Source of the DNA: a virus | DNA: 38,188 bases | Reading direction: 5' to 3' (one strand) | Virus record (IMG/VR): IMGVR_UViG_3300012931_000044 | Span: 1-38,188 of that record | Shown: piece by piece, positions 28,653 through 31,937 of the stretch | How the letters are laid out: the number at the start of each line of letters is the position of its first letter | How positions within the stretch are numbered: the first letter of the stretch is position 1 | Position numbers and translations under genes: made by a program | The notes under the pieces: generated by a model | Told to the model about the DNA's origin: nothing | The model's database searches: none | The model's input: only the letters and a program-made list of their open reading frames with translations

Positions 28653-29210
28653 CTACAATGCCTTCAGTTTAGCCTTGTACTCAGCCTTGATCGCTTTCAG
28701 GTCGTCAATACTGTAATGCTTATGCGGGTGCGGCCCTTCAATCCAATCAACTTTTAGCTGTCCGACCCGCAAAACAAGTGCCGTTCGGTAGTTAATAAGG
28801 TTTCCTGACAGGTAGGAATTGCATTTTTCGCACTGGAGATGCACCTGGCTCTCTTCAAAGCGTAAAGACGGGCAACTTCCGACCGATCTGTAATGTCCTG
28901 CATTCTCTTTTCCGGTATGACTTCCGCAGCTAATACACCCATAGCCTGCCTTTTTGTCTCTAGCCCGTATAAAAGCATTAAACGCTGCTTGTGCTTCTCT
29001 CGCCCAATCCCCACGACTTTTCAACCTTTCATTTGCTGTACGCAGTTCTGCGCGGTCTTTCTTTGTTCTTGATACCTTTGCTGCCTCAATAGCACATTCG
29101 ATGCTGCATCTGCTTTGTAGTGGCTTGGCAGGGGTGAATTTTACACCACACTGCTTGCACTTCTTCTGCTTTGCGGCCTTCTGGGATATTGGGCGATGGC
29201 AAAGGCTCAT
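28653..29210 (-). CDS. ninG: NinG/Rap-like recombination endonuclease
   Basis: 185 residues from ATG 29210 (AAGGAT upstream, ATGA overlap); a GTG at 29228 is possible. N-terminal zinc cluster CKQCGVKFTP ... CSIEC, then a basic helical region, then GYGCISCGSHTG, NAGHYRSVGSCPSLRFEESQVHLQCEKCNSYLSGN, the HNH-like core of lambda NinG (Rap), a structure-specific nuclease that resolves recombination intermediates. Fits with the Rad52-type annealase on the other strand. Confidence 0.88.
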   Translation of the reverse strand: MSLCHRPISQKAAKQKKCKQCGVKFTPAKPLQSRCSIECAIEAAKVSRTKKDRAELRTANERLKSRGDWAREAQAAFNAFIRARDKKAGYGCISCGSHTGKENAGHYRSVGSCPSLRFEESQVHLQCEKCNSYLSGNLINYRTALVLRVGQLKVDWIEGPHPHKHYSIDDLKAIKAEYKAKLKAL

Positions 29211-29395
29211 TTTATCCTTGATTCGCACTTCTCGATTGCCTTGCTTTGCGAGTACCGAAGCCCATCCATTGGGTCAACCCAGCATTCAAACTTCATGCCA
29301 TTTCCCCAGATTGATTCGTACTTCCAGCCGTAGCACCAAAGTATTGCAGGATTGATCGCATGGTAAATCAGCCATAAAAGAGCTTTAGGTATCAT
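29207..29395 (-). CDS. Small hypothetical protein, tryptophan-rich
   Basis: 62 residues from ATG 29395, which overlaps the upstream TGA. Contains a hydrophobic N-terminus (PKALLWLIYHAINPAILWCYGW) and FECWVDPMDGLRYSQSKAIE. Coupled to the NinG gene by ATGA. Role unknown. Confidence 0.55.
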   Translation of the reverse strand: MIPKALLWLIYHAINPAILWCYGWKYESIWGNGMKFECWVDPMDGLRYSQSKAIEKCESRIK

Positions 29396-29703: not shown

Positions 29704-30384
29704 TCAGAGCCTGCCAAGTGGTGCAAAATTCTCCTTAATGTCGGATATTTTACCCTTGTATGCGACAATAATCTTCTGCTCACGCTTCGGGAACTTGCGG
29801 GTATGCAAAGTCTTTTTCGCATGTGCCAATCGGGTGAACTCGCATTCGACATAGACGATCTGATTGTAAACCGAAAGGCCGTTCTCTTTGAAGAAAACAA
29901 CAGTCTCAGCTTCATGGCAATGATACCCTCCGGTCTTGTCCCTGCTATCTCCGGTCATCACCACAAAGAAACAACCGTCTTTCAAATGTTCGATTGCCTT
30001 TTTGTATCCGGTGAAAAGCAAGTCGCGGAATTCTTCATAGGACGAAAACGAATTAAGCTCCCCTGGTGGAGGATTGCCGTCATAGTCAACATAATGTTCA
30101 ACCTTGTAGTAAGGCGGGCAAGTGAATACAAGGTCAAACATTCCATCCGGTGAGTGTGTCGATGAGTCACTTTGTACCCACTTCACGCGCCCATCGAATT
30201 CAGAACAAATCTTGTTGTTCGCATCCGTCTGGTTTTGGCGAATCTCGCTGGCGTAATACTCATACCCACAAGCGCCAGCAACATAACCCATCTGAACACC
30301 GCCTCCGAACGGGTTGTAAATCCTTTTCCCTTCTTTCGGCATGAACATGCGGGCGATAACTTCACAGGCCACAGGGTCAAGCAC
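29704..30384 (-). CDS. DNA methyltransferase catalytic domain (separated by a frame change)
   Basis: 226 residues if translation starts at GTG 30384. SAM-binding motif I NPFGGG at 24-29, acidic SEI near 46-48, catalytic TCPPYY at 88-93, then FVVMTGDSRDKTGGYHCH and a C-terminal REQKIIVAYKG. The order (I before IV) and CPPYY loop are those of amino-methyltransferases acting on A or C. The open frame extends upstream to about 30477 with plausible protein (KRNEQRGQLEKKINDEGEIETT ...) but no start, and its N-terminal region is found in another frame at the end of the composite gene. So this is the 3' half of that gene after a -1 shift or one-base loss. Confidence 0.8.
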   Translation of the reverse strand: MLDPVACEVIARMFMPKEGKRIYNPFGGGVQMGYVAGACGYEYYASEIRQNQTDANNKICSEFDGRVKWVQSDSSTHSPDGMFDLVFTCPPYYKVEHYVDYDGNPPPGELNSFSSYEEFRDLLFTGYKKAIEHLKDGCFFVVMTGDSRDKTGGYHCHEAETVVFFKENGLSVYNQIVYVECEFTRLAHAKKTLHTRKFPKREQKIIVAYKGKISDIKENFAPLGRL

Positions 30385-31937
30385 TGAGGCATTCCCATTG
30401 TGCGACTTGGTTGTGGTTTCAATTTCGCCTTCGTCGTTGATCTTCTTTTCGAGTTGACCACGTTGCTCATTCCGTTTTCACCTTGCCAGCATCCCTCTCG
30501 GGTTGCGTAAGACGGGTTTGCAACTCCGTTTCTTTCCCCAGCAGCGTCGATACGTTCGCGCCACTCAGTTTTAAGACGTAGCCAATCACCTTTAACCGTG
30601 TTCCAGACGTTTGTCATTGTGATGTGTGCCAACAGCTTCAGACGCATCGTTTCAATCGACCCATAGACCATGTAGTGAAAGCCGGACATTTTCAGGTAGG
30701 TCTGAAAGCCAATCGACTCAAACAATGCCGGAGTTTCAAACTTGCTTTTCGGGTCAGTGGTAATCATCGCTGGATAGCCTTCAGGCAATTGCGCGATAAC
30801 CTCGCGCACCATTTGCGCGTACAATTCTTTGGTGTATTTGTTCGGCTCGATCACGGATTGCAGCAGGCAGAATTCACGCGAAACATCGTTCACCTGAAAT
30901 GTGAAAAATCCGCTAAACACATCGTTTATTTTCAAAATGATAGCAGAGTGAATCTGCATATTCTTGCGGGCGGCACGTTTGGCAATGCCATCTTCGATAG
31001 CTAGGCGCGACACATCTTCCTCATAACCAGATCCAAGTACGCTCTTAACGTAAACCCATTCGATGGTATCCTCGAATAGTGCTGTCTGATCTTTATGTAC
31101 GGTCATATCCATTTTATTTTCCTTTGGTTTGATTTTTGAAACTTCAACTCCGCATTGATCTGGACATGCGTTACACGTCCCAAGATAAATGCTAGCGTTA
31201 TGTAGTGAGACGAACTTGCCGCCTCCGATTGCTTCTTCGATCTTAGTTAAAATTATGTCGCCATTCATTACCCTTTCGTTGTTTGAACTTGCGCGGAGTG
31301 GATTGTCGATTACCGGAGTTAGAGATAACAAATAGTCCTGTTTTGCTTGGCACTGTTGCGCCCATTCAGACGTACCATATTCACACGTTACCACCCTGCA
31401 AATGCTTCGCACACCAGCAGCGCGTAGTCGCTCGATCTGCTTTACCCTGTGCTTCATTTCTGCGTCTGTATCTAGTCCGCTGGTTGAAGTGTTCACAACA
31501 GCATTGACGTTTTTCAATCTTTCAATATCATCATCCGAAAGTGTTTTCCAGTGCTTTGTGATAATTACCGGAATCTTTCCTGTGCCGCGCAGTGCTTCGC
31601 AAACTGAAATTGTGTTTTCCCAATCAATAGACGGGTCGCCAGCAGTACCAACCCGATACCACGGCGCGTAGAAATCCTTTACGGCAAAAAAAACATCCCC
31701 ATAATTATCAGCAGTGAGCTTCCGAGAAACGCTAGCAGTAAAATCAATTCCATATCGTGAAGCGGTCTTATTCGCATAGCATTCCCCATAGCACCCGCCT
31801 TCAGGATGAGCATTCATTCCCTGCGTACATCCTTTTACGGTGTCCACATCAAGTACGCCCTTGGCGTTTTCTACGGCTGTGAGAATTGGAAGATACCGAT
31901 TAGCGTGGTTTTCTTCTTCCAGAAATGATAATTGCAT
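30183..31937 (-). CDS. Composite radical-SAM-like + GNAT-like protein with methyltransferase N-terminus
   Basis: The frame encodes 584 residues, of which about 487 look genuine. Residues 1-270: a TIM-barrel-like domain with C37, C49, C53 (GCTQGMNAHPEGGCYGECYA), TKHW near 127-130, NTSTSGLD near 149-156 and a C-terminal C255xxC258xxxC262 cluster, suggesting iron-sulfur and radical SAM chemistry. Residues about 280-430: a GNAT-like domain (FSGFFTFQVND, ETPALFESIGFQTYLKMSGF). Residues 441-487: the N-terminus of a methyltransferase (NVWNTVKGDWLRLKTEWRERI). After that the frame is a shadow of the methyltransferase gene. ATG 31937 follows AGAGGA. Confidence 0.65.
   Translation of the reverse strand: MQLSFLEEENHANRYLPILTAVENAKGVLDVDTVKGCTQGMNAHPEGGCYGECYANKTASRYGIDFTASVSRKLTADNYGDVFFAVKDFYAPWYRVGTAGDPSIDWENTISVCEALRGTGKIPVIITKHWKTLSDDDIERLKNVNAVVNTSTSGLDTDAEMKHRVKQIERLRAAGVRSICRVVTCEYGTSEWAQQCQAKQDYLLSLTPVIDNPLRASSNNERVMNGDIILTKIEEAIGGGKFVSLHNASIYLGTCNACPDQCGVEVSKIKPKENKMDMTVHKDQTALFEDTIEWVYVKSVLGSGYEEDVSRLAIEDGIAKRAARKNMQIHSAIILKINDVFSGFFTFQVNDVSREFCLLQSVIEPNKYTKELYAQMVREVIAQLPEGYPAMITTDPKSKFETPALFESIGFQTYLKMSGFHYMVYGSIETMRLKLLAHITMTNVWNTVKGDWLRLKTEWRERIDAAGERNGVANPSYATREGCWQGENGMSNVVNSKRRSTTKAKLKPQPSRTMGMPQCLTLWPVKLSPACSCRKKGKGFTTRSEAVFRWVMLLALVGMSITPARFAKTRRMRTTRFVLNSMGA

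Follow-up and report, generated by a model that had tools for sequence, protein, structure and literature searches.

Phages M6 and ViI hypermodify thymidine by a pathway that begins with 5-hydroxymethyl-dU and the transfer of an amino acid, and in which radical SAM isomerases and acetyltransferases act on groups borne by the DNA. The involvement of GNATs in DNA modification is known from Mom (PMC7824862). A multi-enzyme phage system for DNA base modification, CmoA/CmoX/CmoY, employs a transferase of the methyltransferase fold and often has ParB nearby (PMC12783734). The locus described here combines a radical SAM-like, a GNAT-like and a methyltransferase domain, and is located in a 38,188-base record of an uncultivated virus, the whole of which is referred to as the window. 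By gene content the virus is a tailed phage: genes were annotated for the terminase large subunit, portal, head morphogenesis, major head and tape-measure proteins, as well as for the central tail fibre J, an Erf-like annealing protein, a DnaB-like helicase and a primase Zn ribbon. Neither ParB_N nor a thymidylate synthase-type gene was found within the window, and the absence of the latter distinguishes the locus from the thymidine pathway of M6 and ViI.

The locus lies on the minus strand (31937-29704) and is flanked by a NinG gene (28653-29228) and by small unknown genes (32055 onward). An earlier note, made from this sequence alone, had described a single frame joining a cysteine-rich domain, a GNAT-like domain and the N-terminus of a methyltransferase, and this was borne out by a 584-aa ORF in frame 0 (30183-31937, minus strand), in which residues 1-275 are cysteine-rich and residues 276-435 are GNAT-like, followed by the start of the methyltransferase. 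The methyltransferase continues in the -1 frame, where the ORF ends at 29704; NPFGGG (30298-30315) and TCPPYY (30106-30123) were both located in that frame, as had been claimed. The features of the locus are as follows.

31113..31937, minus strand: atypical radical SAM domain, residues 1-275 (C37-x11-C49-x3-C53; C255-x2-C258-x3-C262), from the AlphaFold model, fold matches and hhalign
31779..31829, minus strand: putative [4Fe-4S]/SAM cluster cysteines C37, C49 and C53, invariant in 65/65 relatives
31152..31175, minus strand: C-terminal CxxCxxxC cluster (C255, C258, C262), a possible auxiliary Fe-S or metal site, invariant in 65/65 relatives
31110..31124, minus strand: Shine-Dalgarno-like AAGGA and in-frame ATG (residue 276), the likely internal start of the GNAT-methyltransferase part, conserved in fused relatives
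30648..31112, minus strand: GNAT-fold domain without the CoA pyrophosphate-loop motif, from structural comparison and a motif count
30441..30647, minus strand: conserved linker ("mid"), REGCWQGE.G.SNVV, at the GNAT-methyltransferase junction, present in every complete GNAT-methyltransferase relative
30441..30450, minus strand: frame break, from frame 0 to the -1 frame, adjoining an A-run (30446-30449), located by blastp of both frames against relatives
29704..30450, minus strand: -1-frame DNA methyltransferase domain, apparently of the N6/N4 type, from matches to N6_N4_Mtase, phrog_12517 and phrog_498

When the locus was aligned to its relatives, frame 0 was followed up to residue 499-507, at which point the -1 frame took over without a gap. 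Because 42 distinct relatives are open throughout in one frame, with a length of about 730-860 codons in the complete ones, the break is peculiar to this contig. It reflects either a mistake in sequencing or assembly or a mutation of recent date; a near-identical contig by which to judge it was searched for, and none was found. A programmed frameshift was rejected, since the relatives are open in one frame and there is no slippery heptamer at the break. Intact copies of the fusion occur in related phages. The view that all three domains reside in one polypeptide therefore holds for the relatives and fails for this contig as sequenced, which does not encode the fusion intact. Radical SAM frames split by frame breaks or stops were also seen in five other contigs (L038:4914-5796, L052:4989-5798, L064:3003-3788, L151:7371-8239 and L183:4989-5843), so that breaks like that of the window are not rare in such metagenomic assemblies.

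The AlphaFold model of residues 1-275 (pLDDT, 92.8) is a (beta/alpha)6 barrel of the radical SAM kind, as the earlier note had suspected. The best 50 structural matches listed from the PDB were all radical SAM proteins; the first was spore photoproduct lyase (4fhf; Z 12.2, rmsd 4.2, 222 residues aligned), viperin-like enzymes were also among the best, and RlmN and TYW1 were further fold matches. Foldseek alone ranked radical SAM enzymes first, both in the PDB and among viral models. The six cysteines C37, C49, C53, C255, C258 and C262 were found at the residues previously given, and the spacing of the first three among the 65 relatives was C-x9-11-C (rarely x18-20) followed by x3-C. This spacing departs from the canonical CxxxCxxC motif, and Pfam Radical_SAM (PF04055) was not one of the 25 families listed for the 65 members of this family. 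Comparison by hhalign of the atypical family with 28 canonical phage radical SAM proteins gave an E-value of 1.3e-5 over 175 columns, and canonical members were matched by the atypical-family HMM at 3e-5 to 8e-5. This alignment paired only C49 and C53 with canonical cysteines (the first and third), and C37 would stand in for the missing middle ligand of the cluster. Several radical SAM families are recognised as such despite atypical cysteine motifs, and we describe the domain, as modelled, as an atypical radical SAM relative rather than a canonical member. No convincing match to Pfam, PHROG or NCBIfam was obtained for either the atypical radical SAM or the GNAT domain, the weak hints being GP88 (E 0.05) and DUF5131 (E 0.13), and a search of the PDB by sequence yielded nothing credible.

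The GNAT assignment was likewise upheld by the AlphaFold model, in which residues 276-435 show the strand and helix order of the GNAT fold. The best structural match was 1xeb (Z 16.6, rmsd 2.0, 130 residues aligned), and all of the matches listed were GNAT proteins. The acyl-CoA loop, (R/Q)xxGx(G/A), was found in none of 67 GNAT-domain sequences, indicating that this is not an ordinary acetyltransferase and that an ordinary reaction with acetyl-CoA is doubtful. Mu Mom and five homologues showed no detectable homology to the domain by hhalign (E 0.28 and 0.62, over 16-18 columns only). Weak matches to the JBP1 DNA-binding domain were seen in 7/67 GNAT-plus-linker relatives (best E 0.007), one of them at the linker, and are probably due to chance. 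The Shine-Dalgarno-like sequence and start codon that precede the GNAT domain were present in the linker of 29 of the 44 fused relatives, compared with 8.1 expected when the linker's own codons were permuted and 3.9 expected from windows of equal length elsewhere in these ORFs. It may be that a free GNAT-methyltransferase is made besides the fusion; alternatively, the fusions may have arisen when the stop that separated two overlapping genes was lost.

The methyltransferase matched N6_N4_Mtase with an E-value of 1.7e-5, just under the Pfam cut-off, which is exceeded in the ParB relatives, and it gave strong PHROG matches (phrog_12517, 1.7e-36; phrog_498, 1.2e-35). A homologous methyltransferase with the motif (S/T)CPPY occurs in phage ParB-methyltransferases (phrog_498; Listeria phage B054 gp77, Croceibacter P2559S_66 and HCTV2_11), to which the domain shows 28-35% identity; its family is that of the phage ParB-methyltransferases. 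In the isolated phages this domain is fused to ParB, and the GNAT domain thus takes the place of ParB here. Where an N6/N4 amino-methyltransferase would have an FxGxG-type motif I and (D/N/S)PP(Y/F) as motif IV, NPFGGG and CPPYY are present here. The first residue of motif IV is C in nearly all relatives, and CPPY is common to the GNAT-methyltransferases and the ParB-methyltransferases; since it replaces (D/N/S)PPY, the target atom is uncertain. In Croceibacter phage P2559S (genes 66-67; L234:4344-5985), a methyltransferase with CPPYF is directly followed by a gene with a SAM decarboxylase domain (PF02675, E 2e-19), and aminopropyl transfer to DNA is possible for this pair.

Among 2.9 million viral contigs, 127 stretches were related to the radical-SAM-like part and 234 to the GNAT part, and this conservation excludes a chance origin of the locus. 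Homologues with the same domain order, for which the earlier note had proposed a search, were among them. Domain HMMs applied to the fetched loci revealed three layouts: one ORF encoding radical SAM, GNAT and methyltransferase in this order; a radical SAM gene followed by a GNAT-methyltransferase gene; and a GNAT-methyltransferase gene followed by a radical SAM gene. The radical SAM domain or gene was fused or adjacent in 77 of 80 GNAT-seeded loci, the GNAT-seeded set alone being counted to avoid circularity. The exceptions were L115, which is cut by the contig end, and L099 and L100, which have the same sequence. On the 40.8-kb contig L100, which carries the GNAT-methyltransferase, a radical SAM gene was not detected; the partner may not always be needed, or this contig may be a fragment. 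All of the fetched distinct loci comprised 42 fused, 45 adjacent atypical and 14 adjacent canonical cases and 3 without radical SAM, totals that mix searches seeded with different parts. In five GNAT-seeded loci (L122, L123, L130, L143 and L151) the neighbour was a radical SAM protein with the canonical CxxxCxxC motif, a homologue of the atypical protein, and the four of these that were scanned all scored above the Pfam Radical_SAM cut-off. The near-obligate association, its occurrence in three layouts and the replacement of the radical SAM partner point to one pathway.

Canonical radical SAM genes also adjoin ParB and ParB-methyltransferase genes. One phage cluster (L165:4974-8082) contains a canonical radical SAM protein, ParB_N, an ABC ATPase whose C-terminal half may be GNAT-like, and a formyltransferase domain (PF00551), and looks like another base-modification cassette. 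A PAPS-reductase-like gene, recognised by sequence reading (L193:3199-4245), was observed near canonical radical SAM genes in L191, L192, L193, L195 and L223. Neither the atypical radical SAM nor the GNAT part was found, by DNA or protein, in 50,697 records of isolated phages. A pattern scan of bacterial genomes detected the single-ORF fusion only in two Desulfobacterales MAG contigs (L152 and L153), and 1 of 297 genomes of that phylum gave a hit. The copies in L152 and L153 are probably prophage or phage contamination, and the two contigs are the only hint of a host that was obtained.

We propose, with a probability of roughly 0.6, that the locus encodes a phage DNA-base modification enzyme whose reaction comprises two or three coupled steps. 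Together with the linker that precedes it, the methyltransferase domain would bind a DNA site, flip a base and transfer to it a SAM-derived group, with an exocyclic amine as the most probable acceptor. The radical SAM domain would generate the 5'-deoxyadenosyl radical and activate a carbon, be it of the base, of the group just transferred or of a small precursor, and the GNAT-fold domain, devoid of the CoA loop, would complete or position the added group, working as Mom-type GNATs do and not as a simple acetyltransferase. Selected sites in the DNA would then carry a bulky mark that prevents restriction by the host. We infer DNA as the target, the order and chemistry of these steps, and restriction escape as the benefit. 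A stronger version, which we put forward only tentatively, is that the radical SAM/GNAT pair and a sequence-specific methyltransferase could build a C-C or C-N linked group directly on a DNA base within one polypeptide, using a new atypical (Cx11Cx3C) class of radical SAM domain and a CoA-independent GNAT; this would be a site-specific hypermodification of DNA by radical chemistry.

One specific form of the proposed base modification is modelled on Elongator plus Trm9, which produce mcm5U in tRNA: the GNAT domain would present an acyl group, the radical SAM domain would convert this group into a carbon radical and add it to a base carbon, and the methyltransferase would then methylate the product. 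The domain order is the same as in that system, with radical SAM and GNAT on one chain and the methyltransferase after them, and the elongated first cysteine spacing resembles that of Elp3. Elp3 itself was not among the best 50 structural matches listed, which by itself says little against a relationship. However, neither ELP3 (TIGR01211) nor any other NCBIfam model matched residues 1-275 or 276 onward at E<=1, and there was no credible match in the window; moreover, the CoA loop is missing in 67/67 sequences and the methyltransferase appears to be of the amino-methyltransferase type, not Trm9-like, so that Elp3-like chemistry on DNA appears rather improbable. Equally doubtful is an RNA target, in which case the enzyme would act on host tRNA or rRNA and thereby counter RNA-targeting defences or retune translation. 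Radical SAM, GNAT and methyltransferase domains together are a theme of RNA modification (Elp3, RlmN, MiaB), which speaks for this explanation, as does the presence of RlmN and TYW1 among the fold matches, but the methyltransferase has its matches in families of DNA methyltransferases and among the ParB-methyltransferases of phages, and the closest folds include the DNA-acting spore photoproduct lyase.

The radical SAM and GNAT domains might instead synthesise a donor, that is, an altered SAM or other small molecule from which the methyltransferase moves a group to DNA, comparable to the carboxy-SAM of CmoA/CmoX. CmoX shows that DNA methyltransferases can use SAM analogues (PMC12783734), and an AdoMet_dc gene directly follows a related methyltransferase in Croceibacter phage P2559S. 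We regard donor synthesis as unlikely, because the motif here is CPPY and not the SPPC of CmoX and because the fusion favours direct channelling, although it is compatible with a donor. Phages deploy polyvalent proteins of several domains, and also GNATs, against proteins of the host (PMC7824862), and a plain DNA methyltransferase could in principle be translated along with enzymes that are unrelated to it and have host proteins or metabolites as substrates. This explanation is very improbable for an association that is near-obligate, occurs in three layouts and is retained when the radical SAM partner is exchanged.

Many uncultivated phages carry the parts as one enzyme or as two neighbouring genes. 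If the proposed coupled modification of DNA bases is correct, the locus would represent a self-contained way of modifying phage DNA that is widespread and involves both a new family of atypical radical SAM domains and a GNAT that lacks the CoA loop. A new base would be predicted, which could be looked for in E. coli cells producing a single ~750-aa protein, and the enzyme would bear on restriction evasion and might serve as a tool for DNA labelling.

The phage ParB-methyltransferases differ from the present proteins in having an N-terminal ParB where the GNAT domain sits here (by a ParB_N match in B054 gp77 and as annotated in HCTV2_11), and radical SAM is not annotated in the stretches of those phages that were read. 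The canonical phage radical SAM protein encoded beside ParB or ParB-methyltransferase genes (L175, L182, L201 and L208) is a homologous enzyme, which 14 loci pair with a GNAT-methyltransferase, but it carries CxxxCxxC instead of Cx11Cx3C and was encoded by a separate gene in every locus read. Mu Mom, which forms N6-carbamoylmethyladenine, resembles the GNAT domain in its proposed DNA-modifying GNAT fold, whereas it has no detectable sequence homology to it and lacks a radical SAM or methyltransferase domain. CmoX is an SPPC C5-cytosine enzyme with Cx-SAM as donor, and radical SAM or GNAT proteins are not mentioned with it (PMC12783734). Elp3 of Elongator has radical SAM and then GNAT on one chain, as here, but there is no family match, and the locus differs by the missing CoA loop and the fused DNA-type methyltransferase. 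The combination was not described in the literature searched, the coverage of which lacks several key papers, so that its absence is unproven. Radical SAM enzymes, acetyltransferases and GNATs are already known in DNA modification, and we regard the locus as a new form of an established kind of phage DNA modification.
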